Positions 10,994 through 62,400 of a stretch of DNA of 64,000 nt are shown here, piece after piece (positions within the stretch are counted from its first letter, which is position 1; each line of letters begins with the position of its first letter). Below the pieces are notes generated by a model, which saw nothing but the letters and a program-made list of their open reading frames with translations, did not search any database and had not been told where the DNA came from. The position numbers and the translations under genes are program-made. Source of the stretch: Apostichopus japonicus (taxonomy: Eukaryota; Echinodermata; Holothuroidea; Aspidochirotida; Stichopodidae); contig NC_092561.1 in assembly GCF_037975245.1 (NCBI RefSeq), forward strand, positions 13,079,001 through 13,143,000, given 5' to 3'.

Positions 10994-13900
10994 CACTGAA
11001 AACTTAAATTGGTTCACCGACTAACAAAACGTTAGTCCATCTGGTGCCTCTCCCGACTAACATAGCCTTAGTCAGTTGCTATACCGACTAATTTATTCCT
11101 TAGTCAGTTGGATTTCTTAGTCGGTCATCTTAGTCCGTCAGCTTAGTCGATCAACAATTTTTTAGTCGGTAAATGTTTATTAGTCAGTTACATTAGTTGG
11201 TGACATTAGTCGGTCTTTACCGACTAATTTATATGAGCCACCGACTAGTTTATAGCAGGTTTTACATTAGTCAGGATGGTGCCTCTCCCGACTAACCTTT
11301 CTTAGTCGGTATCGACTGACTAGTTGCACTGACTAGATTCACTGAAAGAATTAAACCCGACTAGTTTCACTGACTAGTATCACTGAAAGAAAAGAGAGCA
11401 GAAGAAACACAAATAATGTGTACGTTGGCAGTATTTATTTCTGATAAAACTTCTGATGTCTACAAAAGGCTGACTTTCGACAGATAGAGAAGAAATCACT
11501 GTAAATAAAATCTGAAAATCTGATTTTTTTTCCAACAAAGTTAAGACAAGTTAATGGATCAAACATGAATCGCAAAAGTATAGCACTGCACAATAATGCA
11601 AAGTTGAGTCTTGGGCAAGGGTTCCTCATGACTTTCGTTTTAAAGTGGTACCCCAAATCGACACCAGTTAAGTCTTCACGAACAAAGAGTGTTTCTCTTA
11701 ACTACAAATGGCCTCCCACTTGTCTTCAGGAAGCCAAAATCTGCACCATTATTGACCTGTGAACAGAAAATATGATATACGTGTAATCACAGATACAGAT
11801 ATAGCACATGATAACTCACATTATCATAAACATACATTTACATTAAAATTTTATAACATATTGGGAGGTATACATTTAAATCTAGGTCCCTCAAATTATA
11901 AGCCAGGAATAGCAGCTTTACCAAATTATTATTAGCTTTGCACAGCATAACACCAAGTTATTTCTCAAAGCTTAATAATTATGTTAATCATGTTAATAAT
12001 GATCCCAATAGACCGGGATCCCAGAGGGTTTGGTTAGCTGGGAAGGTAACCAATTGCCTTGTACATCACAATGTTCACAGTGCATTCATGTATATGAAAC
12101 CAGACGACTGGCAAACCGACTGTGGTGGGTGTGGCTGGGAGAGCAATTTTAAAGTCACCTGATAGCTAACCTAGATCAGTTTTCATGGTAACACATCAAA
12201 GTAAGTACAATATGTCAGGTATGGCCCCAAGAGCAACAAATGGCCATTGCCAGTAATTATTGGTGGTGGGGTACCCCTGCCAGTGATCTATAACTGACCC
12301 CTCACGGCTGACCTAGGTCAGCTCATGAGGTAACCACTTGAAACCTACTGGAAAATGTTGGTTAGGGCTTCAGATACAACTGATGGGCATTGCCAGTAAT
12401 TTTTATTGGTGGGGTACCCCTGCCAGTAGACCCCCAAAATGCCCATCCCCCATTGACCTAGATGAGCTCATGATGTAACCAGTTGAAAACTACTGGAAAA
12501 TGGTATCACTTCATATGTAAGGGATGGGAATTTCCAGTAATTTATATTGGGGGGGGATACCCCTGCCAGTAGACCCCCAAAATGCCCATTCCCTCATTGA
12601 CTTAGGTCAGCTCATGAGATAACCAGTTGAAAAATTACTGGAAAATGATAGGTATCACTTCATATGTAAGGGATGGGCATTTCCAGTCATTTACATTGGT
12701 GGGGTAACCCTGTCAGTAGACCCCCAAAATGCCCATCCCCCATTGACCTAGATTAGCTCATGAGGTAACCAGTTGAAAACTACTGTAAAATGATTGGCAG
12801 GACTCTATATATATGTAAGGGATGGGCATTTCCAGTAATTTATATCAGTGGGGTACCCCTGCCAGTAGACCCCCAAAAAGCCCCCCCCCTCATTGATCTA
12901 GGTCAGCTCATGATTTAACCAGTTGAAAACTACTGGAAATTATTGACAGGATTCTATATGTAAGGGATGGGCAGACTCTGGCCCACCAATATAAAATACT
13001 GGAAATGCCCATCCTTACATATGAAGTGATACCTATCATTCTCCTGTAGGTTTCAACTGGTCAAATCATGAGCTCACCTAGGTCAATGAGGGGATGGGCA
13101 TATTGGGGGTCTACTAGCAGGGGTACCCCACCAATAAAAATTACTGGCAATGCCCATCCCTTGTATCTGAAGTCCTAACCAACATTTTCCAGTAGGTTTC
13201 AAGTGGTTACCTCATGAGCTGACCTAGGTCAGCCGTGAGGGGTCAATTATAGATCACTGGCAGGGGTACCCCACCACCAATAATTACTGGCAATGGCCAT
13301 TTGTTGCTCTTGGGGCCATACCTGACACATTGTTCTTACTTTGATGTGGTTACCATGAAAGCTGCTCTAGGTTAGCTATCAGGTGACTTTAAAATTGCTC
13401 TCCCAGCCACATCCACCACAGTCGGTTTGCCAGTCATCAGGTTTCATATACAGGAATGCATTGTGAACATTGTGATATACCAGGCAATTGGTTACCTTCC
13501 CAGCTAACCAAACCCTCTTGGACTCCCGCTCTACAGATCAGTGAAAATTTGACCAAACTTATGAAGCTTGCACGTAAATGATATACTAGACTGGTTTTTT
13601 TTTTAAAACAGGTTATGAAAAGTATCTTAAATATCATTAAACAGTTGGGTACAATAGTTAAACTCACTCTTCCATCTTTTTTCTCTATGGTACTTGTTCC
13701 TTTGCTTTTTGGACTCTTGGATAAACTCTTTTGTTCTGCGAAGGGTACCAATATATCATCTTAAAACATGTCTTTAAGCCATATATAACACAGTTCTCCT
13801 CTTCTGTTGTTGCCTCCACACTGGTGTCGTACATCACAGGAAAGCTCACCCTTGACTTAGATATTTGGCTTTTCAATTCCTGCTGGAAGTAAGAAACAGC

Positions 13901-19789: not shown

Positions 19790-19941
19790 AAACCAAACTA
19801 CCGAACGACTGATCCGCTCTCAACCCCAGTCCCCTTGGATCGGGACTGTGACTGTGTGATCATCGTCAGGTGTGCTTCACCATTCCCCTCGAAAGGGAAC
19901 AGATACTACACATGATCTTAGCCAAAAGGCCGAGAAGCGAT
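19790..19941 (-). ncRNA. U2 snRNA-like sequence with a divergent 3' part (probable pseudogene or chimera)
   Basis: Reading the minus strand from 19941, the first ~47 nt match the U2 5' end: ATCGCTTCTCGGCCTTTTGG (stem-loop I) and then, after AAGATCATGT, the branch-point pairing segment GTAGTATCTGTTC. After that the U2 stem IIa and Sm-site sequence is not recognisable. Instead there is a TTCCC-TTTCGA-GGGGAA hairpin, then a CAGTCCC/GGGGACTG hairpin and other sequence. Known: U2 pairs with the intron branch site in the spliceosome. A template-switched retro-pseudogene is the simplest reading. A variant snRNA is less likely because no clear Sm site is visible. The 3' limit is arbitrary. Confidence 0.6.
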
Positions 19942-25985: not shown

Positions 25986-28900
25986 ATGGCAACGTCTGTT
26001 CCAAGTCACCAGAATCCGGATGTACAAGCGTATTCTCCTGGAGAAAGGTAATTACTCAGTCAATTGTATACTGCGGTAACCCTAGTTAGACCTATGATTA
26101 ATTTCCGGTGGACAGTGGCACCTAGTACTAGGCTAGGCTACGGTATATCACTACTCTACCACTACTACTAGCTAGTACTAGGAAACCCTAACTTAGTTGT
26201 AGCAAAACTTAGGCCTAGGCTGTTTTTGTGCAGATCAGACACGAGACTTGCCTTACCTTAAGATAGGCTACAGTAGCGCTCCCTATGCCTGGAAACTGGA
26301 AGGTGTATACTGTGTAGGCTCTAGGCTAGGCATGCCTAGGGCCTAAGCCTACTGTAGGCCTATAGTACTTTCAGTCAAACAATCATCACAAATAGGCCTT
26401 ACTTAGGCTACATAGCCCACTGCATGCCTTGTAAGGTCTGGCAACAATAAAAGAAAGAAAACATGGTGCTGATAAGGCTAAGCTATATAACGAGATATAC
26501 ATATAGCTCCAGGAGCTCTCAATGTACGGTATGCAAGGGCTAACATCTACACAGCACAGGCTGTAGGCTATAGTAAAGGAAAAGGCTAGAAGCTAACAAA
26601 GTAACTGCATAATATACTATAGTAGGCTATGTTATTGGAAATATTTAGAGACCAGATTAAGTACTACAATAAAATCCAAGTGGGTCTCCTTTATTTCTCA
26701 GCCAGTGGGAATGTAATGTAAGACTAAGAGCATAGCCAATTGTTTTGACTGATTAGTAATAGTAGCTTTGGTCGTTATTAGTCTTTAGTATATATCTGGC
26801 AACCCAAACTTAAGTTGTCCTTGGCAAAACTGTATTGAAATCCATGTAAGCGAAAGTTTACATATTTACAGTGCCCCCTTTTGGGTATAGCCCTGCTGCA
26901 AATTGCTTTACAGAATTACTTTATTTTAATGATTTCATATTGAATTTTTATGATAATACATCATATCCATTGCAGATCTTTCTTGAGGCAATGTTAGTAC
27001 AAAGCTGGGTCATGCCTACGTCATATACTGTACCGTAATATATATGATGATGGTGACTGAGTCAATGAAGGCCAGCACTTGGGAAATTTTAAGAAAACTT
27101 TGGTAGAAAGGCCACACAACAGGTGCAAATGCAGTTCAGGCCATGAAAGCCCTTGGACTCTCCCTGCAGAAACCGAAGAATATAGCCAAATTATCATACA
27201 CTTGTTCCGTCTACAGCAATTGATATTTAAATCTATTACCATCTATGAAATTTTGATCACTATTGAATTAAGTAAGAAGTTCCATGATTTCTCATGTGCA
27301 GCAACAATCCTGGGCTAGTGACCACAGATTCTTTTAAAGATCTCGAAGAAGACTACAGTTATGAGGCTGATGATGTACGACCAAGACATCCCAGCGGTGT
27401 AATTGCAGAGATTGTTGAAAGCACACATACAACCACTTCAGACAGTAAAGAAAGTAATCTGGAGAAAAGTAACTCTAGTGGAAATAAAGAGGTACCGTTG
27501 TCCATCATTAGTGTTCTTGTAAATTTAAAGAAACACTTTTATTTATCTCGTACATGACCCCACACCCCCCATCTCCACCTCCCCCAAAGCATGGGATTTA
27601 CAACTGAGAGAAAACATCAGTAAACTGCAGCCCTTAAAATATTTTAGTGATTCTGTGAACGTAATCGATTTATCACAGACTTGTCAATGTAATCTTGGCG
27701 CCTTGCATACTGTATGTACTTTAACACAAAGTACATCATTTATTTCAGGTCATTTATTTTAGGTCTCAGTGCTACTTGTTCTGTATCTTGTTTACATAAC
27801 ACACGGAATGCCTCACAAGTTTTGAGTTAGAATGGTTGTAAGTAGGTTGATTAGACCTTGTCTACCTGTGCTTAGAGGCAGAAGGTGTCATTATCCTAGT
27901 GAAGATATTTGCAAGCTCATTCACAGCTCTGTCGGTTTGTCCATTGAAGTAGTCATTAATGACATTCATACTGTACATAAAGTTGCACTTGTTTTGGTGA
28001 TGTGTTAAAAACCTGGTCTGAAATGTTTAGAGGCCTACAGAATGGTTTTTAATTTATGATCAGAATCAGTGCAATGAAAGAGGAAATATCGTAATCCAAA
28101 TACAGTACTCGTTACAATCTCTGATTATTCACTACGATTGTTTGGTGTTCATCTTGTTTCCTTCCAGGATGTAAGCACTGATGTGAACCATGTTGAGGAT
28201 GGCAAGGAACATTTATCAAATGATGCAGATGTGTTTACCGAGGGACAAGAGGCAGAAGAGCAAAGGGTACGAAGTGGAAGCGTCCTGCAGAAGGTGGAGA
28301 CAACCACTGACGTTAGGATAGAAGAAGGTAGTGTTGTGTGACCAGTGGTTTAAACATCAACCAGGGTATACTTAGAATTAGTTTTGTGTTTCAGTTTAAT
28401 AAACTTGTTAATAAAATTGGTAAGTTTGCAATTCAAAATCCAGTGGGGAGTGATGCAAATGGTGACAAAGTCTGAAATGGTGAGCGGCTGCAGAAATAGA
28501 GTTATTATATCTCGGAAAACTAAAGGGATATTGAATAGATTGAGGTACTTAGTGGGAGTTATGTGAGCTCTTTGTATGTATTTTAGATCCTCCTGCAAGC
28601 AGGAACTCGCGAAGAAGCCATCATTGGCTTATCAAAGCCGCAAGCTGACCAAAGTCAGTCTCTTAGATTCATATATTAACGGCCATGATTATAAATTGTC
28701 AACAACTCTGTAACAGAATGACATACATTAATCTTGGAGTGACTTGAACTCGGGATCTTGATTGAAAGGCACAGACATTAACCACTGAGCTAACATGATC
28801 GATACAAGCTATATTTTCACTTGTGGGAATCCCTGCTGGGTTGTCCAGGAAGAAGCTTCCAAATAGGGAAGAATTAATAACTATAGGATAATTTAATATG

Positions 28901-31900
28901 GAATTGAAGTAGGATTTATACTCCCACTATCTAAGGAAACAGCAGTTCACACACTTCTGGAAGATATCAGATATCTTGTATAAATTTATCAATAATAAAA
29001 GAATATTGATGCATTTGATGTATCTCAAAGGGTTTTTTTTGTTTGGAAAACAATTAACCTGACTAAACTGAATTCTTTCATTTTCATTTGCATTTGCATT
29101 TGTTTTGTTTTTCTTTCATTGTTATACAGATGTCCACAGTATGAAATGGAAGAAACACAAGAAACACATCTTTATTCTCAGTGAAGCAGGCAAACCTATA
29201 TACTCCAGGTAAGCAAACTAACAGCAATGTTACACTCCAGGTAAGCATAATAACAGCAGTGTTGCACTCCTGGTACTGTAAGCATAATAACAGCAGTGTT
29301 TAACTCCAGGTAAGCAAACTAACAGCAATGTTACACTCCAGGTAAGCATAATAACAGCAGTGTTGCACTCCTGGTACTGTAAGCATAATAACAGCAGTGT
29401 TGCACTCCTGGTACTGTAAGCATAATAACAGCAGTGTTTAGCTCCAGGTAAGCATGCTAACAGTAGTGTTACACTCCAGGTAAGCATACTTACAACAGTG
29501 TTACACTACGGGTAAGCATACTAACAGTAGTGTTATACTCCAGGTAAGCATACTTACAACAGTGTTACAGTACGGGTAAGCATACTAACAGTAGTGTTAT
29601 ACTCCAGGTAAGCATACTAACAACAGTGTTACACTCCGGGTAAGCATACTAACAGTAGTGTTATACTCCAGGTAAGCATACTTACAGTAGTGTTACACTC
29701 CGGGTAAGCATACTAACAGTAGTGTTATACTCCAGGTAAGCATACTTACAGTAGTGTAACACTCCAGGTAAGCATACTAATAGTAGTGTCACACTGAAGG
29801 TAAGCATAATAACAGCAGTGTTACACTGAAGGGTTGCTTCAGTCTCTATCCTCAGTTAGGCATACATAACTGTGTACCCAGGTACCCATACTATACAACT
29901 ATTCATCCAGAAATGATTATACAAAAAATATTTAAAACTATATTCGCTGTGGTATACTACCATTTGAGCTATTTTCCATTGATCCATGTCCCAAAATTAT
30001 GTCATGCCACCAAACAGAATCAGAGTTTTATATGTCAGGTTTGAAGACTTGCTGTGGTTAAAACAAACCACAGTCTACAGCATATATGTTTTAGTGAGGC
30101 AGGCTGTTAGATTGGTTTTGCTTACTGGGAGCTGTTACTTACAATGGTTCAGTTGTTTTGTTGTTGTTAATGCAGATAATATGATGTTTTTCTGTGCATA
30201 CATATATATGGCAATGAAGATAAACTAGTGACACTAATGGGTGTAATCCAGGCAGGCAGGCTGTTAGTTTGGCTTTGCTTACTGGGAGCTGTTACTTACA
30301 ATGGTTCAGTTGTTTTGTTGTTGTTAATGCAGATAATATGATGTTTTTCTGTGCATACATATATATGGCAATGAAGATAAACTAGTGACACTAATGGGTG
30401 TAATCCAGGCAGGCAGGCTGTTAGATTAGCTTAACTAACTGGAGCTGTTACTTACAATTGTTCAGTTGTATTGTTGTTAATGCAGCTAATATGATGTTTT
30501 TCTGTGCATACATAGATATGGCAATGAAGGTAAACTAGTGACACTAATGGGTGTAATCCAGGCAGGCAGGCTGTTAGATTGGCTTTACTAACTGGGGCTG
30601 TTTCTTACAATTGTTCAGCTGTTTTGTTGTTAATGCAGCTAATATGATGTTTTTCTGTGCATACATAGATATGGCAATGAAGGTAAACTAGTGACACTAA
30701 TGGGTGTAATCCAGGCAGGCAGGCTGTTAGATTAGCTTTATGAACTGTGAACTGTTTCTTACAATTGTTCAGTTGTTTTGTTGTTGTTAATGCAGCTAAT
30801 ATTATGTTTTTCTGTGCATACATAGATATGGCAATGAAGGTAAACTAGTGACACTAATGGGTGTAATCCAGGCAGGCAGGCTGTTAGATTAGCCTTACTA
30901 ACTGTGAGCTGTTACTTACAATTGTTCAGTTTTTTTGTTGTTAATGCAGCTAATAATATGATGTTTTCTGTGCATACATAGATATGGCAATGAAGATAAA
31001 CTAGTGACACTAATGGGTGTAATCCAGGCAGGCAGGCTGTTAGATTAGCCTTACTAACTGTGAGCTGTTACTTACAATTGTTCAGTTGTTTTGTTGTTGT
31101 TAATGCAGCTAATAATATGATGTTTTCTGTGCATACATAGATATGGCAATGAAGATAAACTAGTGACACTAATGGGTGTAATCCAGGCCTTAATTTCTTT
31201 CGTGCTAGATGATAAAGATTGCCTTCGGTGAGTTATATTATTTTGTTGCTTCTTTCAGGGATTATTAATTTTTGGGGGCGATTGTCACTTTGTTTGTACT
31301 TTTGATCCACACCAAACGGAATTTTATTACATAAATCAGCAAATGTAAGATGTATAAGCAATATTTGTATTACACAATGGTCACTTAGTTTTTTATGATA
31401 CAGACTTTTGGTTGGCATATTTACAGTTAGTTTGTGTCTGAAATACACTACAGTGCTCCAAGGTTTGATATCCTTAAAGGCTGCATTACAGTTGCTTTAA
31501 TTGTGCCTTATTACGAATATGATATTGCCAACAAAAACTTCATGTTAATTAGTCCGTTCATATCTATTAACGATTTGAACATTTTGAAATGGATATTGTC
31601 TAGCCATCACTTTGTCCTGACTCACCCAGAGGAGGATTGGCCAAACTGTCTAGAGGCTCGCTGGTCGGAGATGCCAATGTCCTCTCTGTTTGAAGGATGC
31701 TAGTTTCATCGAGAGGCCAAATGTGATGTCCTCATTTTGAAGCTGCAATTTTAATATCTGGAACTTTAGTGAATAAAAAGTGCATGGGCTCTGAGACAAA
31801 AATTCTTGAAGATCTAAAGGGAATTAAATGATTTAAAGTCTGAACTTTGATGAGTAGCATTGAACACAAGTATTTTTTATTTGTTTCTAGGTCAGTGGTA

Positions 31901-32145
31901 GCTGGTGGTCATCTCATTGTATTCCTTCTACGGCCGCCACTAATTCTTGTGGCAGCCGCCTCTACAGGTGAATCACAACAGCAGGTCAGTGTAGATCCAG
32001 TATTGATAAGGCAAAGAATGTTTGTTTTGATTACTCACAGAATTCAAAGAGCTAGGAGTTAATGCAATGGTTATAATGATGATGATGCTGATGCTGATGA
32101 TGCTGATTATGATGATGATGATGATGATGATGATGCTGATGATGC

Positions 32146-32239
<94 letters not shown>

Positions 32240-35200
32240 GGTGGTGGTGGTGGTGGTGGTGTTCGTGGTGGTGATGGTGATGAAGATGGTGTGTAGTGTG
32301 TATGTTATGATCAGTCAGCATGCGTAGCTTGCATGATTTTGCAAACATGAACATAGTGTGTAAAAGCTCTTAAGTTAAATAATTCTTAGCTGTTTTGGCT
32401 ATTGAGGGGGTCATTTGGGGTCAATGGATGGCAAATTTTGAAAATCGGTTAAACAAGCTAAATTTAGCAGGGATGAATCTCATACTTGGCAGGTACTGTA
32501 GATGTATCTTCTAGAATTTGAGCCATCTAGTTCTTCTAGTGGAGGTTAACAGACATATGAGGTCAGCAATGATATAAATTTTGCAAACTGATGTTGTACA
32601 GTACATTGAATAAGTCCAGCTTTGTTAGATCTCATACCTAGAAAATATGGGCCTCTCTATGAGTTCTTCCATGTTGGTGTTTGTCGTGAAGGTCAAAGGT
32701 CATTTCAGGTCAGAGAAAAGCAGAGAGATTTTTTTGCTAGAATGGTTCACAGGACTTGTATTGCTGAGAGTACTAGTTCAAACCCTATTCTAGTCCACCA
32801 TTACTTTACTCAATATTTTATAATTTCCCAGTTCACTACTTGTACATCATGGAAGCTGCAGTTCAGCTTTGCATTGTGGTTCCCTCAAATACTGTAGCTT
32901 GTCTATTCGATCTGACTAAAGGCTTTGACCTTTGTACCTGCACAGAATAGTTTGGTCAACTGTTGAATATTCTAAGCACTGGATGAGAGTGATAGAATAT
33001 TATATGGAAATTATCAGGTAGAATGAAAGAAGTAAAAGTTAAGTTGTGAAGTAGTTTTATATTAGACAAGACGTTGATCTTTGTAGGCTTCCTCGCACCA
33101 CAAAGCATCTGTTGTTACAATAATCCAGCACACAACCACTATATTTTATGCTGGGATACTTATAGCACCAGACATGTGATCAGTGTAAACACCATCAGTA
33201 GCATTAAGTAATAACTATTCTATAAATAGCATATTAGTGGATGTAAGCTTGTTTTCACTCTTTCTTGTTGCAGCTTTTATTACAATTACGGTATATGCAC
33301 AACCAGATTCTGAGTGTCCTAACACACACGCAACTCACAAAGATCTTTGAACAGAGGAGGAATTACGACCTACGGAGGTTACTCTCAGGTGAATATCCAC
33401 AGAAGACATTTAATGAAATGCTTCTGGTAGTATTTTATGATCAAATCCAATATTCCTGTCAGTTCCAAAAAAGTTGTTTGGAAAGTCAAAATTGTTGTTT
33501 AAATGTTTTCTTGCCACTAGACTTTCTTTATCACTCACTACCTGAGTACCATATCAGACTACTGATGTAAAGTTAGTTCAGCAATCATATGACTGCCACT
33601 AGTCTTGCCACTAGTCTTGCCACTAGCCATTGTCTTTATCACTTCAGGTTCAGTTTCAGGCTCAGCCTGACTTTCATTACCCCTCACTTAGCTGAGTACC
33701 ATCTCAGACTACTGATGTTAAGTTAGTTCAGCAATCATATGACTGCCACCTTCTTGCCACTAGTCTTGCCACTAGTCTTGCCACTTGCCACTGTCTTTAT
33801 CACTTCAGTTTCAGTTTCTTTTATTCCAGTATAAATATCATAAAATACCATTTTTAAAAAGCGGAGTATAAAAAGTTGTTACATAAATTACAACAAATAT
33901 AAATGCAGTGAAAGGCAATAAAAAAAAAAAAGAGAAGGAAAAGAAAAAAAGGAAGGCTTTTTATTGTTAGTAACACAATCATCAGTTTTCAAAATGTTAG
34001 TCAACTGGGAATAATAAGAAAATATAAATAAAGATCCATTATATCAAATCAAATCATTTAAAATACCATTTTGAATAAATATTGATGCTCTGTATACAAA
34101 CGACTTTTTGAAAATTTGAACCCTATATTTAGGTTTTATTGCACAATTTTGTAAATTATAGGTTAGTTTGTTGACAAAGAGATTTCAGTTCTTTATTAAG
34201 AGGGTGTTAACTGTCCCTATGAATACTCCTGGTGAGTCTGATAAATTCACTTTTAGCTGCACTGTTAACATTATCTGTAATACAATCCAACTTAAAAATC
34301 TTAGCATGTAATACTTTATGAAAGCTCTCAATCTTTGTTTATCACGAGTTATAAGAAATGGTACCAAACAGGGACAGCGTATTACTTTAAAGGGGCAGAA
34401 TCCATGTATCAAATATTTACATATTTATTATTATTAAATATTTTTATATTTACATTTAATAATTAGTTCTGTCAGGACACATTTTGTACAACACAAATTA
34501 ACGAAAATGGACTTTTTATATCTCATTTATTAATAAACTTGGCAATTCCCCTTGGAGGTGATGTGTATTCATTTCAAGCCAAACTTGAACACACAAAACT
34601 GGTCATTGATTTGAACAATTCCAGGCCCAGAGTTACAATTTTCAGTTAAATTGGATTTCATTTTCATGTTAGTCATTTGCCAATTTCTCTTCAGGCACTG
34701 AAAAATTTCTAAATAGTCTAGCAGATTTAATGGATACAGACCCTTGCTTTTTGCTGTCAGCAGTCCGAGGGCTCCCTCTGGATGTTTCAGTTAGAGATGT
34801 CATAGGTCAAAGCATGCAGAGTGCAAAGATCAAGGTAGGTGAAGGGAGAACAGAGATATTTTTGCACAATACAGGCATGAGCTTTTTCCGCGAATTCGCG
34901 GAATATCCGTGAGTTCTTTTCTACCTCGGGGACAAAAACTATTATACTATACCGCAATTCTTGCAAAGTTACGTGATTTTTTTACCCCAGGCTCATCCTT
35001 GATAATAACAGGAGTTATGATGTCATTTATTGTACTTAGTTTATTGCTGCAGTATGCAACAGGTTTTAATATAACTTGATACATTTGAGAAAACAGCTTT
35101 CAATGTGTACCTCCTTCCATTTCATTGATAGTGTTTCTACTAGCAAACAAGAGCTATGACTCTGTCCTCATGTGTTTCTTCCAACCCCCCTCCCCCCTCT

Positions 35201-38200
35201 TCCCCACACCCTGAAATGTTTGAATATGTGTTGATGGTAACCTTATCAATAGTAACATAGTTTAAGTCTCTGGCATAGTAATTTAGTTACTGTTTGAATA
35301 TTAAAGGTTATATTTATCAGGGATGTGCCCATCCTGGGCGGCACTGGGAGGCTCAGCCCAGCACTAAAAATTACCTCCCAGCACTGTCTTAAAAATCTTG
35401 AATCCCACCCAGCACTATTTTCATCTAAAATCCGGACATTCCTTACAATATATTCAACATAAATTGGGCCTAGCCTATGCCAAAATCATACAGACTAATA
35501 ATGCATCAGTTACGCATCCGAGAAACATTACTTACGGCTCTCAATCGGTCCCTCGTAAATCTCTTTGAAACAAACTAATAACTTTTACCAGGTACGTAAT
35601 ATATTTCACTTAAAAAATAATTAAAAAATGTAAATTGTTAACAAACCTAGTGTATGTGCTTATAAAGCCTCACAAGTGCCAGCATTTGGCATCTGAGCAC
35701 CTTCAAATATCGAAAAATTTCTCAAAGGGGAGGGGACACCCCCTACCCCTTAGACCCCTCCCCCAGGATGGTGATTAGTATACCTGGCACTCAGGAAATC
35801 CTGGGTACATCCCTGATTTATGTGATGTTATGTTAATGTGATTTTGTGTGTATAAGTTTTACATACTTAGTGATTATGGTGTGTTCTCTCTTCAGGCATT
35901 TTGTTGTTTATGTCAAATCGATAGGAGGACAAATACATTCTAGAAATGAAAATCACAAGATTATACTAACTGAAGAGATCATTGCACTGTACTTATTCAT
36001 TGTCAATTGAAACAATTTTATGCTGATTTCTAACATTAGGTTGCACTATATATGCAGTTTGGAAAAGCATATATTTTCAAAACATAAGTTAAATACCGTA
36101 AATTTGTTCCTTTTTCTTCTCCTTTTTCAGGATTTAGTGTTTGCAATTCTTATAGCTGATGGTCAATTAGTGACGCTAGTACACATGAAGAAATACATCC
36201 TCCATCCAGCAGGTAAAATAGTCTGTTTATTATCCTCTTCTTTTTCCATTGTGCTGGTAAAAAATCTCTCTAATTTCTCTTCTCTTTCCCGGTGCGCGGG
36301 TAAAACAGTCTTATTATTATTCATATCTCTTTCCCATCTGAGGGTTAAACAGTCTCTGCACATAACTTAAATGCACCGATAAAGAAAGATAAAGAAACTG
36401 TCAAATTGATGTTATCATATTATCATCTTGGTTTGCCTAAATGGAGGTTTAATTAAGTTTGAAGGACATCTGTGAATGCTGTTTTAGTGTTGATTTGTTT
36501 ATAAACATTTAGAAAACAACTGAAATAAAATGTATTGGTATATCAAGTATGGTTTTAACTGTGACCCCCCATCAGTAAAGTCCCTCAATAATTCTCCTTG
36601 AAGGCAAGGCTCATATTGACACCAGCAGTAAAAAAAATGGTTCAGGCATAAATAAAATTTAACAGATAAGACCAAAACATGATCTAAATTGGTACAGACA
36701 GTTACATACAATTCCCTACTTTACCCGTTATTTCTGATATATTGATATATAAAGTGAATGGGTCTCATTTTGTATCTAAGTACTAAGTCATTGTGGTGAT
36801 ATCACATAATGGTGGATCTAATGTTGAAGTAGAATTTGCATAGAAATTAAGAAGGAGACAAAACAGTTATTGTGGATGTATGACATCACAGCTGGTTGCC
36901 TTTCACTTTGGCCAAATGCATCTATAGTTTCAAATGTTACATCATAAAAGGCATGTACCATAGGAACTTTACATGCAAAGATTGAATTGATTAAATATAC
37001 TTGGTTATTAGATCCACATTTGTAAGTACAAGAACCATATCATTTCTGTGATGTTCAAAGGTCATCTGAGTTCAGCAAAAGTCTCAAGTCTTAAAACCTT
37101 GAAACACATACAACATCCATAGTACAGCATGAATGAACTTGATAGTTGATAAACATGTAGGTCCACATTAATGAAAGAACATATGACATTTAGTGAGTAG
37201 TGGTCAACACTTATATACCTTGTGTGCTCTACTACGGTTAAATGTTCTCATTTATAATATGGCCACAAATTCACTAACTCAACTGATTCTCTGGTAGTGG
37301 TTTAACAGGTTTAATATGCCACTAATTTGTGCTATATTAGTTATGATCATAGGTGTAGCAGGCGGGGGGGGGGGGGGCTGGGGGTGGGGTTGGGGCTGCA
37401 GCCCCAATCCAAATAATTTTTGTGAAAATTCGGGCAATATGCTGAGAATTTTTCGGGCACCTACTGAAAGAAAACTAAATTGCAATGTGCTTTCCAATGG
37501 TTAAACTGATATTATTATTATCTTGATTATTGTAACGACTTGACCAAACATGATAACCAATATGGAGGGGTAATAACACGGCAAATGATTGTATGTAATT
37601 GGCATGCTATGTAATAACCGATGAATGACTATATGATATGTACGATAATATGTTGGTTATATTTTTCGGGCAAGTCGTTACAGCCCCCCCCCCCCCCCCA
37701 AATCAAATTGGGCTCCTACGTTTATGGTTATGACCGTAAACCATATTCTTAGATTAAGACTAGTAGATATGTTTTTCATTTCTTGTGACTGATCTTTTTC
37801 TTTTTGCTTTTCCTAGATTTACATCTGGTGATAAATCTACTGAAGGCATCGTCAGCTTTTGAGACGTCTGATTCGTGGGTTCCTATATGTCTTCCTAACT
37901 TTGACAGCAGTGGTTACCTCTACTCTCATATATCATACCTAGACCACAGTCCTGCCTGCCTCTTACTTCTTACCGTGGACCAGATGGCATTTAAAGAAAT
38001 GGAAAACTGTAAACAGAAAATAGTAGAGGTAAATTTCAAAGATTATTAAGTGAGCCCTGTATTATTTTCCATCGAAAAAGATGCCATGGGCAATTCTTGC
38101 AGTACTTATTCAACCAAAACACAATCTCAAAGGCATGTTGTGCCCCATTTGAAACCAAAGCTATTGAAGAGAAAAGCAGGAAAACAAAATGAAACAAAGA

Positions 38201-41200
38201 ACTACTTGAAAAAGACCAAAGAAGTTGTTGTTAACCATTTGTATTATTAACCATATGTATGATGCATATCTGTGTATTTAGAAGCTGCTGTGAACCATTT
38301 GTATTATAATTAACAATACGTATGATGCATATTTGTGTATTGAGAAGCTGTTAACAGTTTGTATTATTAACCATATGTATGATGCATATTTGTGTCTTTA
38401 GAAGCTGTTGTTAACCATTATATTATTAACCATATGTATGATGCATATTTGTGTATTAAGATGCTGTTGTTAACCATTTGTATTGTCTTTCATTAAGTCC
38501 ACCAGAATCTTGCATTGACTTACAATATAAGCTTAGAAAGGAAGAATTGTGGAAAGGAAAAAATTCATCATTTATCGTTTATTTTCATCACACAATATCT
38601 AAAATATGGCAGCGGACGACTGCATTGTTTTTCTTGAATTCATGGATGGTAATGTTCAATGTAAACATGCTTCTGGCAGTGTAACCCTAAAATGTGGAAG
38701 TGAAATGAAACAAATACTTCTATTTCATTGCATCAACTTGACCAGGGTACCTAACTTTACTTGTTCTTAGTTGAGTAAACCCAATGGCTAAACGGCTCAA
38801 TTCATCTCCAACTATTGGGTTGATTTGTGGAACACTTGTTTATTTCAAGCTGCTTATTCCTTGTCATGTTTGCTTGCATGTCTGTCCCTTGTGATGCAAC
38901 AAGAGTTTGTCCATCCTCCTCCAGCATCATACCTCTGAGACAAGCTGCTTATGCCTTGTCATGTTTGCTTGCATGTCTGTCCCTTGTGATGCAACAAGAG
39001 TTTGTCCATCCTCCTCCAGCACCATACCTCTGTGACAAGCTGCTTATTTCTTGTCATGTTTGCTTCATGTCTGTCACTTGTGATACAACAAGAGTTAATC
39101 CATCTTCCAGCATGATACCTCTGTGACAAACTGCTTATTCCTTGTCATGTTTGCTTTAACGTCTATCCCTTGTGATACAACAAGAGTTTCTCCATCCTGC
39201 TCCAGCATGATACCTCTGTGACAAGCTGAGGGTAGTAAAGACATTGTTGTGCAGCATCACTGAAGCATAGTTGTGACAATGTCCCAATGAAAGGTAGTTG
39301 TAATATACATATGTAATAAGAATTAATTTGTCAAGCCCAGTAAACTGAGTGTTTTCAGCTGTGAGTATGCCATGTCATTGTATTTCATTTTACTCCAGAA
39401 ATTAAGGAAGTACAATTGCCTTGCTGCCATCAAGCGCGCTATTAAAACTGGAAGTTATACCTGCCAAGAGGTTGGAGTAGGAGAACTTAGACACTTTCTT
39501 TACAAAAACAAGAGTACCGCCCAATTCACATCACCGTCATGGGGAGCCCCCTACTCTGAACCCGAGGAACAAGAAAGGTAGTTTTAATCAGATTGTTTTC
39601 TTTTTATTGAGCACAGGTATCAAAACAGTTCATAGCTTTAGACAGTTCATTCCATTTCTCTAGTTATTGTTTTTATAAAGTTTGTTAATTTTCAAGGTTC
39701 TGAACAAAATTGTTCAGAACTTTGGTAAATGGGTTGTGCAGGGTGATAAATTATCTACTTCAAAAAACCTATGTGTTTATGTTCTGTGTTCAGTCAATTA
39801 TTACAGTTTTCTTTGATCAGACTTGGAAGCTCTGGGTTATAAATTACATAATTTCTGTATTAAAAATTGTATGACATGAGAATTCTAAAGTGCTTCTAGT
39901 TTCTAGTTGGCATCTTTTTATACTCTGTTTGGTAACTCGGAATTTTTTAATATTTTTTATTCCTGTAGTTGCTGTACACAGCACTGTTTCTGATTTAATG
40001 TTATTATTCCTACAGTAGCTGTACACAGTGCTGTTACTGATTCAATGTTATTATTCCTAAAGTAGCTGTTATTCACCATTGTTACAGATTCAATGTTATT
40101 ATTCCTATAATAGCTGTTCACACCACTGTAACTGATGCAGTGCTAAGATTTCCTATAGTAGCTGTTACACACCACTGTTACTGATTCAATGTTATTATTC
40201 CTAAAGTAGCTGTACTTACCACTGTTAATGATTCAATGTTATTATTCCTAAAGTAGCTGTTATTCACCATTGTTACAGATTCAATGTTATTATTCCTATA
40301 ATAGCTGTTCACACCACTGTTACAGATTCAATGTTATTATTCCTATAGTAGCTGTTGCACACCACTGTAACTGATGCAGTGTTAAGATTTCCTATATAGT
40401 AGCTGTTACACACCACTGTTACTGATTCAATGTTATTATTCCTAAAGTAGCTGTACTTACCACTGTTAATGATTCAATGTTATTATTCCTAAAGTAGCTG
40501 TACTTACCACTGTTAATGATTCAATGTTATTATTCCTAAAGTAGCTGTACTTACCACTGTTAATGATTCAATGTTATTATTCCTACAGTAGCTGAACTCT
40601 GTTGGTTGCTTAAACTTTTCATATTTTGTTCCTGCAGGTTATATTCTTTGTATAGGTTTGTACACCAGAAAGTTCATAACCAAGCAAGGCCGCTCAAAAT
40701 TCTATTCTATGTTGGAGCTCATGAAAGTGTACTTGGATGGGTAAGTTCGTTAGTCTATATAAACATACACACTGCAGGTTTGATATTTCCCAAAACAGTA
40801 AAGTAATGAGCACATGCAGATGTACAGGCCACAGGAAGAAAATATGTCCCTTATGTACCAAGTGAGTGTTTTGCTTTAAAGGAATGCAATTCCAAATTAC
40901 ATATCTTCTTTATTACAAATTACATATCTTTGTTATTACTAATTACATATCTTCATATTACATATCTTCAAATTAGATATCTACTTCAGTCTTCAGCATT
41001 AATACATTAATTCTTAATTATCAATTTACTATACATATGCTTGCTTGATATGGAAGCTTAGTTTATGGAACTCAGATGGTGAGGAATCCATACGTTGGTT
41101 CCCTGGTGCAGATTAATAGCTGATATTGTCTGCAGATTAATAGCTGATATTTTCTGCAGATTAATAGCTGATATTGTCTGCAGATTAATAGCTGATATTG

Positions 41201-44166
41201 CCTGCAGATTAAGAGCTGATATTGTCTGCAGATTAACAGCTGATATTGCCTGCAGATTAAGAGCTGATATTATCTGCAGATTAATAGCAGATATTGCCTG
41301 CAGATTAATAGCTGATATTGTCTGCAGATTAATAGCTGATATTGTATGCAGACTAATAGCTGATATTGTCTGCAGATTAACAGTTGATTTTGCCTGCAGA
41401 TTAATAGCTGATATTGTCTGCAGATTAACAGTTGATATTGCCTGCAGATTAACAGCAGATATTGCCTGCAGATTAATAGCAGATATTGTCTGCAGATTAA
41501 TAGCTGATATTGTATGCAGATTAATAGCTGATATTGCCTGCAGATTAACAGTCGATATTGTCTGCAGATTAATAGCAGATATTGTCTGCAGATTAACAGC
41601 TGATATTGTCTGCAGTTTATTAGGTGATATTGTCTGCAGATTAATAGCAGATATTGTAAGCAGATTTATAGCTGATATTGCCTGCAGATTAACAGTTGAT
41701 ATTGTCTGCAGCTTTATCGCAGATATTGCCTGCAGATTGATAGCTGATATTGTCTGCAGATTAATAGCTGATATTTTCTGCAGATTAATAGCTGATATTG
41801 TCTGCAGATTAATAGCTGATATTGTCTGCAGATTAATAGCTGATATTGTCTGCAGATTAATAGCTGATATTGTCTGCAGATTAATAGCTGATATTGCCTG
41901 CAGATTAATAGCTGATATTGTCTGCAGATTAACAGCTGATATTGTCTGCAGATCAATAGTTGATATTGCCTGCAGATTAATAGCTGATATTGCCTGCAGA
42001 TTAATAGCTGATATTGTCTGCAGATTAATAGCTGATATTGTCTGCAGATTAATAGCTGATATTGTATGCAGATCAATAGTTGATATTGTCAAGTATTCTC
42101 CTCGTACCTCCATCCCAGGTTCCTGACTTTCGATGGAAATTGATAGAAAAATATTATGTAGGTCACAGGCTTGACTTGTGACCTACTCGTGAAGTTTTAT
42201 TAAGTATACCCCTGCATCTTACTAATTTCTCAATTACCAATAGTAGGGTTTAGACTCCCTATTGTCTAGCAATGCATTGCAGCCATTAAAAAAACAACAA
42301 AAACAAAGGTTATTTTGAAAGGGATCATAACAAAATTTCATTTGAAACTAAACCAAATGTACTGCAGATTCTTCAATATCCAATGCACAAGCAGTTATCT
42401 TTGGATATCAAAAGGTGTATAATCTGACTCCCCTTAGATGTTTTCACCATATGAAGGTCAACGTTTGAGCAAAGTAATGTATTTGAGCTCATCCTCCAAC
42501 TTATGATCATACATACACTTACATATTAGTATTCATCAAAACTGGGAAATTTCAAATTTTAATAGTTTGATATTTGAAATGAAACTTCACAAGTCAAGCT
42601 TGTGATCTAAATCAGATTTTTCTATCAATTTTCTTCATAAATTGACTTAAACCAACTCATGTACACCTGCTCTAAGTCAGGAACCAGATTGATGTATGGC
42701 AGATACACTAAGTGCCCAATACAGTCATCATTACAATTGTTGACTTACGTTATGAAAGTGCTAAGAAGTGATCTGAAAGCGTGAAAATAATATAAATTTA
42801 TTCTTGTTCTATCACTTGTAGGTCACAACTGGTTTTGAGATGTATGCAGTATTCAGCCCTCTTACTACAAAGCAAGTTGCTATTCTAGCCATCAATAAAA
42901 TCCTCAAATGGATCAAGGTAAGTGTTATGTTAAGTTTCTGACCTTGCCCTAGTCATTGAATGAATGAGGCAATGTTATAAAACACAAGCTTTAAGCCCTC
43001 TCCATCATGCTGGTGTGATAATGCAATCTGTCTGTTATAGCCTCATCATGCATTCAATCTAAACAATCTAAAAGTTATTGTTTGGTAAACAACATTACAG
43101 TCATGAGAATCTATTATACAATCACTACAGCAAACCTAGCACCAATACTGACAGTAAATGTCTGTGTGGCTATCTCCCTCTCTCTGAAATAACATTGGTT
43201 GGATGTATGCTTGGGCAGGCAGGCAGGTGTCAGGGGTTCTGTTCATATTTGTACATTACGTTGTATGCTGGACTATGTGTTTTGTACAATCACTACAGTA
43301 TGCCTAGCACCGTTACTGACAGTATATGTCTATCTGGCTCTGTCCCTCTCTCTGAAATAACATTTCCGCAGCAGTGCAAGCCTTTGGAGGGACACATTTA
43401 ACAAGTACCCTCAAGTCATTAGCTCTTTGCTGTATCAAGTATAGCTATTATAAAGTGTTCACTGTGTAGGGGTTCATAGCTCTATTCATTAGTAAAGCCA
43501 ATGCATTTGCTCAGGGAAATATGCCAGCTTAATAATATGCACTGATCGTGTGTTGATGAACAAGGAAGTTTTTGCACTAAAGTACATCATTATTATTGTG
43601 TGATTATTAACTACACAATAGTATCGACAAAAGAGTGTAGGGTTAGGGATCGGTATGTTTGGAATGCATGGTGAGGCCTTAAAACAATAAGTACCCTTCC
43701 TAATGCTTACCCATCATTATTGTGATAAATAGAATTCTAAGGCAATTAGAATACATATGAGTTAAAAGTGTTATTTCAAAGTAGTTATAAAGAGAGATGT
43801 TCCTGACAAGGAGCTTGTATGTTTGTGCTAAAGATTGAATAATTTCTACAATTTTCAAGAAAGTGTGCAGATTTGCAAAAGGTTCATACATTACTATTTA
43901 TAATATATATATATATATATATTAAATATTAACCATTGTTTATTTTTTTCTGTTTTACAACATTTAAAGATACTTCAACATCGATGGACACTGTTATTTG
44001 AATTATCAAAATAAAACCATCAAGAGCAGGCATCTTAGGCACTATCATATGATATGAAATAACTCATGTGATGCAAAGTATTTGGTAAAATTGAATTATT
44101 TCCTCAATTTTCATCCGCTAGAGAGAGGAAGACAGACTCTTCATTCTGAATCCACCAGAATATTGA
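25986..44166 (+). CDS. MON1: MON1 vacuolar/endosomal fusion protein, complete, 14 coding exons, 547 aa
   Basis: Exons: 25986-26047, 27302-27491, 28168-28327, 29130-29208, 31141-31227, 31891-31984, 33274-33388, 34695-34834, 36131-36212, 37817-38028, 39399-39577, 40638-40740, 42822-42917, 44122-44166. Every junction is GT-AG, all phases agree, and they sum to 1644 nt (547 codons plus TGA), the usual MON1A/B length. The N-terminus (residues 1-137) is acidic and disordered. The conserved body starts with [20 protein letters not shown] (about 149-168) and continues through VVAGGHLIVFLLRPPLILVA, QILSVLTHTQLTKIFEQR, VFAILIADGQLVTLV, YVGAHESVLGW and a C-terminus ending LNPPEY. Known: MON1 has three longin domains and with CCZ1 forms the GEF that loads Rab7 on late endosomes, driving the Rab5-to-Rab7 switch. 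Odd: several introns hold tandem arrays, and intron 4 has both splice sites inside arrays. Confidence 0.97.
28585..28805 (-). mobile_element. tRNA-derived SINE in MON1 intron 3
   Basis: On the minus strand, TTAGCTCAGTGGTTAATG resembles a tRNA D-arm / box A (about 28777-28795) and GAGTTCAAGTC resembles box B (about 28741-28752), spaced as in tRNAs. A non-tRNA body follows down to about 28585 (GCGGCTTTGATAAGCC, then GCGAGTTCCTGCTTGCAGG). A genuine tRNA is unlikely because acceptor-stem pairing is not apparent. The limits are approximate. Confidence 0.55.
29201..29838 (+). repeat. ~34-bp tandem array made from the exon 4 / intron 4 donor site
   Basis: The unit reads ACTCCAGGTAAGCATACTAA then CAGTAGTGTT. 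The first copy is the authentic splice donor (exon ends CTCCAG at 29208, intron begins GTAAGC). GTAAGC occurs 19 times in the array, and 11 copies keep the full CTCCAG|GTAAGC. Others read CTCCGG, CTACGG, GTACGG, CTGAAG or the variant CTCCTGGTACTGTAAGC. Confidence 0.96.
30097..31187 (+). repeat. ~155-bp tandem array made from the intron 4 / exon 5 acceptor site
   Basis: Seven copies of a unit that contains intron sequence (GTTACTTACAATTGTTCAG, TTAATGCAGCTAATATGATG), then GTGCATACATAG and 46 nt of exon 5 (ATATGGCAATGAAG through GGTGTAATCCAG). Exon-like starts lie at about 30207, 30363, 30516, 30669, 30826 and 30982; the authentic one is 31141. The first two copies have lost the AG (CATATATATGG); four upstream copies keep TAG. 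Copies 3-5 read GAAGGTAAAC, creating a GT right after a 14-nt exon-like piece. Only the last copy runs on into GCCTTAATTTC and the rest of the exon. Confidence 0.96.
32067..32290. repeat. (ATG)n / (GTG)n microsatellite in MON1 intron 6
   Basis: A long GAT/ATG trinucleotide run changes to GTG at about 32224. It gives poly-Met/Val and poly-His frames that are not genes. Confidence 0.98.
33508..33837. repeat. ~160-bp duplication with CTAGTCTTGCCA mini-repeats (intron 7)
   Basis: GAGTACCATATCAGACTACT...TTCAGCAATCATATGACTGCC near 33543-33597 recurs near 33694-33748. Each is followed by runs of CTAGTCTTGCCA. Confidence 0.85.
33840..34412 (-). pseudogene. Non-LTR retrotransposon RT C-terminus, copy 3 (minus, intron 7)
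   Basis: The minus strand encodes VPFLITRDKQRLRAFIKYYM, then in another frame IFKLD...NSAAKSEFIRL, followed by decayed sequence. The order matches the copies at 16785 and 20690. Frames are broken. The left (3') limit is set by the A/T-rich tail near 33840-33960. Confidence 0.65.
35318..35815. mobile_element. 498-bp hAT-like element in MON1 intron 8, TSD ATTTAT
   Basis: The left end CAGGGATGTGCCCATCCTGG and right end CCAGGATT...GGGTACATCCCTG are inverted, and ATTTAT flanks both sides (35312-35317, 35816-35821). The 6-bp duplication is shorter than the hAT norm of 8. The interior contains the GGGGAGGGGACACCCCCTACC-type hairpin also seen in the 138-bp array units near 17.2-17.8 kb. Confidence 0.8.
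37348..37726. mobile_element. 379-bp hAT MITE in MON1 intron 9, TSD GTTATGAT/GTTATGAC
   Basis: The ends CATAGGTGTAGCAGG and, read in complement, CATAAACGTAGGAGCCC are inverted; the 8-bp flanks differ by one base. Long G and C runs stand next to the two ends. A second inverted pair, TGTAACGACTTG (37531-37542) and CAAGTCGTTACA (37671-37682), delimits a 152-bp nested palindromic piece. Confidence 0.8.
38224..38486. repeat. ~60-bp tandem array in MON1 intron 10
   Basis: The unit contains TTGTATTATTAACCATATGT then ATGATGCATATTTGTGTAT and AGAAGCTGTTGTTAACCA; four full copies plus a partial one. Confidence 0.92.
38845..39240. repeat. ~93-bp tandem array in MON1 intron 10
   Basis: About four copies of a unit with AAGCTGCTTATTCCTTGTCA, ATGTCTGTCCCTTGTGAT and CAACAAGAGTTTGTCCATCC, ending in a partial fifth copy. 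Confidence 0.92.
39955..40597. repeat. ~48-bp tandem array in MON1 intron 11
   Basis: About 14 copies of a unit with TTCAATGTTATTATTCCTA and AAGTAGCTGTACTTACCACT. A multi-unit block (with the TGATGCAGTG...AAGATTTCCTATA variant) appears twice, so the array also grew by larger duplications. It ends about 40 bp before the exon 12 acceptor. Confidence 0.94.
41108..42090. repeat. 24-bp tandem array, ~41 copies, in MON1 intron 12
   Basis: The unit is GATTAATAGCTGATATTGTC then TGCA. Variants include GCCTGCA, AACAG for AATAG, and GCAGAT. As 24 is a multiple of 3, every frame stays open when the unit lacks a stop, giving 343-351 residue ORFs (CRLIADIV repeats on plus, INLQTISA repeats on minus) that are not credible genes. 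Each unit also contains TTGTCTGCAG, which looks like a splice acceptor. Confidence 0.98.
43118..43365. repeat. Duplicated ~80-bp segment (170 bp apart) in MON1 intron 13
   Basis: CAATCACTACAGCAAACCTA...GACAGTAAATGTCTGTGTGG at 43119-43195 recurs with changes at 43289-43365, and both copies end CCCTCTCTCTGAAATAACAT. Confidence 0.85.
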
Positions 44167-59419: not shown

Positions 59420-62400
59420 ATGATGACTTTCACCATCCGCATGGTGGTTGTGGCTACAGGGATCTTTGGGAACATTGCTCTCGGGCTGGACGATAAGGTA
59501 AATCAAACGTTAAGAAGTTAAGAATGAAAGCTAAGGAAGTTGGATGGTTCATATAAATTGCTGATCTACCTTTTCAATCATGCAACTTGATTAATCGTGA
59601 ATATTTGGAGACCCATACCGAAAAATATATAATATATAGTTTAACATATTTAAATTGATTAAAGTTTAGATTCATTGATATTTGTATATCTACTATCTCT
59701 AAAATAACAATAATAAACCAATTTTAATTGTTGTGATATATCACCTGCACCAAATGTCGACGTCAGACTTCTTGGAAAACTTTTTCGATATAACTTGTCA
59801 CATGTTCACTCAGACTGCATTGTAGGTCAGTCGGTACTAAGTTTCTTGATCATATTTACTTCTTGAATTTTCCTGAAATCAGAAGACCGGAGACAATATA
59901 CAACATCTACCCCTCCCAAAAATTAGATTTGCTTATTACAGAAACAGCAATGGTTAATATATGACAGTTGTCAGCATAAGTACGTATACATTTTATATTA
60001 TATTTTATTGTCAGTAAAAATCAAGATTACTGTGTTGACAGACAATGTCATGTCTCTCAATGTACGTCGGAAAAAAAGAAGTGAAGATAATATGTGGATC
60101 GTAACTTGTAGTGAAGTTGGTGACGGTGGCTAGAGCCCCCATGAGTTGTGTTGGTGTTGTTGTTGTTATAACCGCTCATCTTATATTAAGGCTAAATATT
60201 GCTAAATAATATATGGAAATAAGATAATACAGAAGGTTCGGTTTCAATTTAAGGAACCATCCGAAATTGTAAATACGTTTCTTCATAGATACCGTAAACT
60301 TACTCCGACTTGCATTATTATATAAGGTAGAAGAAAGATCAATTATGTCTAAATCAGAATTTATTCTGAATAAATAATTAGATTAATGAATTAATTAGAT
60401 TAATTCAGCAAGACGGCATTTGATGTCTCCATGTAATCTCTGGGTACAGGGTTGTGGTCGAGCAGCACAAAGGGCGGTGGCATAGAAGGAATGTAGCCTA
60501 CCATATGGGATGTCTTGGGTTCGTTCCTTGACCGACCAAAGTAAATGGCGTTTACCTCCAGGAAACATCTACGGTTTTGCCATCTGCAATGGATTGTAAA
60601 TATTCAAAATAATCTAAAACTGTAAATCGAAAAGCCACCCGACGTCAGGTTACAAGCCATTGCGACAGAGTATCGTAAAATAACTGCCTTGAGACTGAAA
60701 GAGGACAAGATTTACAACCGGGATTGATGGGACTGGGGCTAAGGCCCTCAATATTAGGTTCAAATTTGGAAGGGAGATGGAAGAAAAGGGAAAGACGTGT
60801 ATAGTAACTGACCATTCGAAACCCCTAAGATTCTTCATTTGACTTACATTGTTTTTGTCTAACATTAATCCTTTTCTTCTATGTGATAATATTATGGTGT
60901 ACAAGTAAGTTGGCCTGACGTTTCGATCCTAGAAGGATCTTCTTCAGAGGCTAAATGACTCGTAACAGTAACTTAAGGGACAATAACACGCACAGATTAC
61001 AGACAGGTTAATGAGCATGGTAAACACAAAGGGATAAATGTAAGGGGATCAGTAGACAAGGGATGGAAAGAAGAAAGAATGAAACCAGCAGGGGAAGGGA
61101 GAGGTAGGAGGTAAACAGTAGAAGGACAAAACAAAGAGAGGATTACGGGAAGGGGGTAGGGAATAAACTAGAGAAGGACAAAGACAGAAAGGTGAGGAGA
61201 AAAAAGGGATGGAAGAGAGCTATGAGAAGAGGAGTGACAAGGGGGGGGGGTGAGAAGAAAATATATTATTGTTGTTATTATTGTTAGTGTCTTTACCTTT
61301 TTAGGAAATTATCACTCCAAATGCACCCTACCAATGCCCTCTCACCTCTCAACCAGTGATGTATCGCGACTGTAGCGAAATACAGGCTGAATGTCATTCA
61401 CAAGCCAGTGGGGTATATCAAATTCAACCAGAGGGATATGGTGCATTTAAGGTGTATTGCGATTTCGACACTGACGAAGGAGGATGGACGGTAACAACGT
61501 TTTTGTTCATTAATTTATTTATTCTACTCGCTTGTTTGGAATGTGATACATGTTTATATATTCCGCCTAACACAGTAGAACGCATAGGGCACGGTTGTTG
61601 TCAGTCTACAGGGGTTTGCGCAAATATCAACCATGATGGATGTCTTATGTTCTACTAAGGTAGATGTCTAGGGAACCTTTGATGAAGCGCGCAAGTGTCA
61701 TTTACTTCCTATTACCCTGCCTGACAGCTCTCATATATAGCCTTCGCATAAAAAGTTTCTATTAGGTCTTACAGCCTTGGAACGTTAATTCAAATTTCTG
61801 AACGTACCCATTTTACTTCACTCAGCTCTACAAGGAATGAAATGGTCCTGACACTTGACGCATACGTCTGGTCAACGAACCTCGTGATACATGAAATTGT
61901 ATCATGTATACGTATCTTTAGATTTGATGATCACGTCTTTTACATTCCTACCCTACAGGTGTTTCAACGACGCTTGGACGGATCAGTCAATTTTGATAAA
62001 CTGTGGACTGATTACAAAAATGGCTTCGGCTTTCTAAACACAGAATTCTGGCTTGGTAATGAAAAACTTGCCTACCTCACCGCTCAGAAGAACTACGAGT
62101 TACGAATAGATTTCCGAAACAAACACGGAGACCCCTACTACGCATCATATGATCACTTTCGTGTTGGTGACTCGGGCAATTACTATAATCTTTTGTTGGG
62201 GGTATACTCCGGAAATAGTGGTAGGTGTAATCTCAACCGATAGTCTCGGAGAGTTATTAATCGGTTTAAATGATAACTAAAGCAAGATTTTAGACTTTTT
62301 ATGTCAGAGCCCTAGAAGGAAAGAGAGGAATAAAGAGTGCTAGTAATGTTTCTATAACTACTCCGGTTTTCGAGATATTCAGATTTAAAATATATTTCTG

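Follow-up and report, generated by a model that had tools for sequence, protein, structure and literature searches.

In the MON1 gene of Apostichopus japonicus, one intron has each of its ends within a tandem array of the splice junction found there, made of donor units on one side and of acceptor units on the other, and as repeats both arrays are far beyond chance. Judged from the sequence and from protein homology, the authentic sites are shown to be the outermost copies, i.e. the first donor and the last acceptor, with every decoy in between. Very probably the arrays are two independent neutral minisatellites sitting on the donor and acceptor junctions of a single intron, whose decoys are tolerated. 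Structures of this sort have been described in amphioxus under the name of mirages, which are minisatellite-like tandem copies of exon–intron boundaries, in the globin genes BflGb6 and BflGb9 and in Adh3 (PMC3087553).

The MON1 intron and its two arrays

The gene lies on the + strand of the window (the whole 64,000-nt stretch of DNA that was analysed, with a GC content of 37.7%, to which all plain coordinates refer), where the 12 exons that could be placed (27302 to 42917, the terminal exons of the gene excepted) form a single open frame of 512 codons. Protein homology makes it a conserved trafficking gene: a 125-residue part of the joined-exon protein matches solved MON1 structures (best E 6.3e-41), and the joined protein contains the Pfam domain Fuz_longin_1, the first longin domain of FUZ, MON1 and HPS1. 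The arrayed intron runs from 29209 to 31140 (1932 nt), and by arithmetic from their spans the two tandem arrays account for about 86% of it. The features involved are the following (a slash marks a junction):

29130..29208, + strand: MON1 exon before the intron (exon 4 of the preliminary description), ending in ATATACTCCAG; within the MON1 structure matches and Pfam Fuz_longin_1
29202..29827, + strand: donor array with GTAAGC in each of its 19 units, which measure 32 bp except for three of 37 bp; the first GTAAGC, at 29209, is the authentic donor
29828..30096, + strand: intron middle without repeats between the donor and acceptor arrays, 269 bp, outside the TRF rows
30102..30258, + strand: acceptor unit 1, AG lost (ACATAT/ATATGG)
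30259..30415, + strand: acceptor unit 2, AG lost, 98.7% identity with unit 1
30416..30568, + strand: acceptor unit 3, AG kept ahead of 30516, GAAGGT giving a GT at 30530
30569..30721, + strand: acceptor unit 4, AG kept ahead of 30669, GT at 30683
30722..30878, + strand: acceptor unit 5, AG kept ahead of 30826, GT at 30840
30879..31034, + strand: acceptor unit 6, AG kept ahead of 30982, without GAAGGT
31035..31188, + strand: acceptor unit 7, which holds the authentic acceptor (its AG at 31139-31140) and continues into the full 87-nt exon
31141..31227, + strand: MON1 exon after the intron (exon 5 of the preliminary description), 87 nt, followed by GTGAGT

In the donor array, 19 consecutive GTAAGC words occur at 29209-29800 with a spacing of 32 or 37 bp, followed by a seam without GTAAGC after the nineteenth, and each unit contains about 7-10 nt of exon sequence. 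Four seam types are found among the 19 units, CAG/GTAAGC in 11, CGG in 4, ACT in 3 and AAG in 1. Donor strength was expressed as the energy of the duplex with the 5' end of U1. On this scale 15 of the 19 array donors stand at -11.0 or -10.3 kcal/mol, while the 12 donors of the MON1 gene range from -5.7 to -12.5 kcal/mol and only 4 of them reach -10.3; hence, most decoy donors of the array are not weak.

TRF reports the acceptor array at 30097-31188 with a period of 157, 7.0 copies and 94% matches. It consists of seven units of 153-157 bp (starting at 30102, 30259, 30416, 30569, 30722, 30879 and 31035), every one of which joins the 3' part of the intron to the 46 nt with which the following exon begins, the exon start ATATGGCAATGAAG lying at 30206, 30363, 30516, 30669, 30826, 30982 and 31141. 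An AG stands ahead of ATATGGCAATGAAG in copies 3-7 and an AT in copies 1-2, and the four decoy acceptors equal the real one over the last 12 intron bases. The 46-nt exon block is the same in all seven copies except that in copies 3-5 an A has been replaced by G, which creates GAAGGT; past the block, copies 1-6 read GCAGGC and the exon reads on in copy 7 alone. Unit pairs are 91-99% identical, with 98.7% for units 1-2 and 6-7 and 91-96% for the remaining pairs, and since copies 1 and 2 are this similar the AG was probably lost in a single event and later duplicated, rather than lost twice.

Much of the preliminary description is borne out by these data. Its conserved trafficking gene is MON1, as indicated by the structure matches and the Pfam domain, and the two intron ends that it called amplified are those flanked here by the donor and the acceptor array. 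TRF and the alignment agree with its account of seven units of about 155 bp carrying the acceptor and 46 nt of exon, with only the last continuing into the full exon; its counts of four upstream decoys that keep AG and two outermost ones that have lost it are correct, and the base change by which GAAGGT creates a GT after 14 nt is present in copies 3-5.

The window abounds in minisatellites: those with a period of at least 15 form 15 arrays (overlaps collapsed), and the MON1 donor array is the only one whose consensus pairs with U1 at -10 kcal/mol or lower. Other repeats in or near the gene include a 24-bp unit present 41 times at 41107-42090, in a later MON1 intron, whose consensus holds the acceptor-like TTGTCTGCAG and which thus adds more acceptor-like decoys to the gene, none of them spanning an exon; a 47-bp array at 39957-40594 that stops 43 bases short of the MON1 exon at 40638; and a long ATG/TGG trinucleotide microsatellite at 32076-32279, inside the MON1 intron 31985-33273. 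Two adjoining minisatellites at 12309-13300, in which a unit measures about 146-149 bp, have consensuses that look mutually reverse-complementary. Elsewhere in the window, a minus-strand Rfam match to U2 snRNA at 19854-19941 (52.7 bits, 88 bases against a model of 192 positions) is probably a shortened pseudogene, and open frames at 61305-62243 presumably resemble exons of fibrinogen-related domains.

Junction arrays in other genes and the probable origin of the repeats

The genome (671,581,487 bases in 35 contigs) was searched for both arrays. With a search that skips very common words, the acceptor unit had no match in the 671.6 Mb beyond its own array and the donor array none beyond its own locus, so a dispersed repeat or mobile element is unsupported, both arrays being found at the MON1 locus only. 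Neither a paralogue nor a second haplotype of the locus was found at the DNA level in the genome-wide search.

Arrays of the same build were looked for through their donor words. Three successive CAGGTAAG words gave 318 matches with gaps of 12-42 nt and 449 with gaps of 43-73 nt, against 164 and 214 for the reversed-pattern control, counts in which one array yields many matches. A more stringent pattern, CAGGTAAGT at gaps of 11-41 nt, gave, in its complete list, 29 matches in five loci against 39 in the control, i.e. no excess. Flanks were inspected at 12 array loci besides MON1, namely 7 distinct ones among the CAGGTAAG matches listed and the 5 of the complete CAGGTAAGT list. Real exon donors underlie the arrays at 5 of the 13 inspected loci, MON1 and four further genes:

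HECTD3 donor array: 46 aligned units of 49 bp (one of 50 bp); match of the exons, once joined over the array, to PDB 9r85 with E 4.5e-32
DNAH10 donor array: 66 aligned units of 46-47 bp; match of the exons, once joined, to axonemal dynein heavy chain 10 with E 1.1e-96
KRI1 donor array: 54-bp units; Pfam Kri1_C across the junction, E 5e-32; the array read at both ends
PTB-domain gene donor array: three 69-bp units; Pfam PID across the junction, E 1.3e-10

The DNAH10 alignment passes straight through the array junction (...RIYLTLTQ/ALSMYLGG...), and the PTB-domain gene is one that we take to resemble JIP1, its PDB match being weak. As in MON1, the authentic donor of each of the other four genes is the outermost copy of its array. 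At the eight other loci (L040, L041, L042, L046 to L050) no exon end was demonstrated from the flanks, which is no proof of absence, and the reading of the flanks showed none of the five complete-list CAGGTAAGT loci to be an exon end. Two of the eight, L040 (C2:1232000-1238000) and L042 (C2:8225500-8230500), are CAGGTAAG-rich, 7 Mb apart and alike in units and flanks, a similarity which suggests that they stem from the duplication of a single segment. L047 (C9:2047000-2047950) is a 45-bp CAGGTAAGT array whose matches reach C9:2049917 and which is preceded by an 89-codon open frame not recognised as an exon.

As to how such arrays arise, the two junctions of the MON1 intron would each have received a seed, one at the donor and one at the acceptor, either seed with a little exon and a little intron, and tandem duplication, slippage and unequal exchange would then have enlarged them as two independent minisatellites, in what we infer to be neutral growth. 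Because each seed held exon and intron sequence, the copies carry working-looking splice sites. Consistent with neutral growth, neighbouring units are the most alike and arrays of the same build occur on the donors of four other genes.

A duplication steered to splice junctions by some process linked to transcription or splicing seems quite improbable. The roughly twofold excess of triple CAGGTAAG over the reversed control speaks in its favour, but single arrays are counted many times among those matches, real donors are rich in that word, so an excess is expected without any targeting, and CAGGTAAGT, with no excess, gave five loci of which none was shown to be an exon end. The other point in its favour is that both ends of one intron were struck. 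The stretch bounded by the outer two of the twelve MON1 exons holds eight tandem arrays with a period of at least 15, and when the eight unit lengths were placed randomly in that stretch, with its 11 introns, both ends of one intron were hit with p 0.0047; against it, two or more junction hits among the eight arrays arose with p 0.094. Neither value is strong, since MON1 was picked after the fact for having the arrays.

HiFi reads are longer than the MON1 arrays. Mis-assembly that inflated one or a few repeats is extremely improbable: one amphioxus mirage is described as mis-assembled in a draft (PMC3087553), but here the substitutions and indels that set the copies apart are nested, arrays of such kind stand at several independent loci, and the Apostichopus japonicus assembly is reported to derive from PacBio HiFi reads (PMC10344927).

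Decoy sites, reading frame and probable tolerance

The 19 array donors were combined with the 5 AG acceptors and each product was translated through the known downstream exons. Of these 95 pairs a single one keeps an open frame, the first donor with the last acceptor; the other 94 run into a premature stop.

The preliminary description had also pointed to the 14 nt between the acceptor and the new GT in copies 3-5 as a potential microexon. Its statement that inclusion breaks the frame holds: a single microexon leaves the frame open in none of the combinations (19 donors with 3 sites), and two or three copies also reach a stop, one combination per copy number being sufficient as the three 14-mers are identical. 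An in-frame triple microexon (42 nt) is thereby ruled out by a stop codon. Actual use of the microexon finds no such support, its donor being modest at -6.8 kcal/mol; since 2 of the 12 real MON1 donors, and just these, score weaker than that, its use is possible, as far as can be predicted only as a frame-breaking event. The 46-nt inclusion that was likewise envisaged does not survive, because the block is followed by GC and not by GT, which rules out a 46-nt exon as such.

The mRNA probably joins the first donor to the last acceptor, as the sole pair that keeps the reading frame, and the inner decoys would be either ignored or spliced out. Tolerance may be achieved by two routes. Exon recognition may prefer the outermost sites; or a splice between inner sites may spare the outer ones, so that a second splice could still yield the correct mRNA, since all decoys lie inside the outermost pair and a mistaken splice among them would not remove the authentic sites. 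If splicing is normal, these arrays are natural experiments in which one donor is chosen out of 19 in MON1, about 46 in HECTD3 and about 66 in DNAH10, and the disregard of the spliceosome for dozens of strong, near-identical decoys becomes a question of splice-site choice.

The decoys could alternatively have been selected, either to tune the MON1 level by unproductive splicing (NMD) or to hold U1 on the pre-mRNA. The premature stops of 94 of the 95 pairs would suit such a function, as would the intact GTAAGC in 19 of 19 consecutive donor units, where half of the columns are variable, and the almost invariant exon part of the acceptor units. Conservation was examined column by column. In the acceptor array 1 of 46 exon columns is variable against 21 of 102 intron columns (Fisher p 0.002); 20 of 159 circular 46-column windows are as quiet as the exon block, however, and the near-invariance of the block is weak evidence because variable columns cluster. 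For the donor array, GTAAG has 0 of 5 columns variable against 16 of 32 overall (18 aligned MON1 units), with 4 of 32 windows as conserved, its own window counted. The corresponding figures are 27 of 49 windows in HECTD3 and 3 of 47 in DNAH10, and the combined test over the three arrays gives p 0.02, a biased value, as it was a search for the donor word itself that had brought up two of the three. Selection on the decoys, positive in the first Fisher test, thus finds no support in the contiguous-window tests; conservation could mean constraint, weakly so once clustering is considered, and we do not claim selection. Besides the lack of significance against contiguous windows, AG is gone from 2 of the 6 upstream acceptors, and similar arrays are present in unrelated genes and at eight other CAGGTAAG loci without a demonstrated exon, as undirected growth predicts. 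We consequently hold a selected function to be highly improbable and return to neutral growth with tolerated decoys as the preferred reading.

Comparison with known systems

Recursive (ratchet) splice sites are zero-length exons with YAG/GTRAGT. The 11 of 19 MON1 donor units that read CAG/GTAAGC resemble them in being potential acceptor and donor at once; they differ in that no long polypyrimidine tract is apparent before the AGs of the array.

The Rogers model, in which introns are gained when AGGT is duplicated in tandem in the genome (with a potato RdRp case; PMC4974935), shares with MON1 the tandem copies of an AG/GT seam that give paired splice sites. It differs in that the MON1 units already hold intron sequence within a pre-existing intron. 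A MON1 intron newly gained from purely exonic duplication does not fit the data, the units being intronic and the 269-bp middle unrepeated. Internal tandem repeats are also described as altering the structure of human genes, there in paralogues within segmental duplications (PMC2812944).

Multi-step or nested splicing and re-splicing are described for dystrophin and TSG101 (PMC4829307, PMC8234774, PMC10957711). In MON1, an inner splice made first and the outer pair joined later would give the same mRNA. Taken further, this idea would mean that any mis-splicing between inner copies can be recovered by a further round as long as the authentic sites are the outermost pair, so that the arrays would undergo self-correcting multi-step splicing. 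If true, dozens of strong decoys would be harmless and mirages would provide a stock from which new introns and exons could safely arise. We consider such a rule unlikely; it is weakened by the exon junction complex, which is named as a repressor of re-splicing (PMC8234774, PMC10957711).

The closest known counterpart is the mirages of amphioxus, also described in PGBD5 and troponin C (PMC3902484). They share, in the accounts given of them, units that span a boundary on the 3' or 5' side, AG or GT kept in many units, and homogenised neighbours, and their unit lengths are 150-160 bp in BflGb6 and 10-72 bp in Adh3 (PMC3087553; PMC3902484). The MON1 arrays likewise join exon and intron across a real junction (46 nt and about 7-10 nt of exon, with MON1 homology), their units of 32/37 bp and 153-157 bp fall within 10-160 bp, and the 98.7% identity of units 1-2 and 6-7 against 91-96% for the others is the pattern of concerted evolution. 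From what is reported of it, the BflGb6 mirage is closest in build to the MON1 acceptor array.

There are also differences: the MON1 intron carries an array at either end, the host is an echinoderm and the reported hosts are cephalochordates, and donor arrays of this genome reach about 46 (HECTD3) and 66 (DNAH10) units. In the open-licence literature we found neither further reports in echinoderms, sea cucumber or sea urchin, nor a description of arrays on both ends of one intron. A special role of the MON1 arrays is not borne out, given that similar arrays occur on the donors of other genes and that amphioxus mirages are apparently spliced regularly, as RT-PCR suggests (PMC3087553). The MON1 arrays belong to the known mirage kind, an unusual-looking structure and not a new system. 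They would extend an amphioxus curiosity to an echinoderm genome, where several unrelated conserved genes carry junction arrays and allow a count of them.
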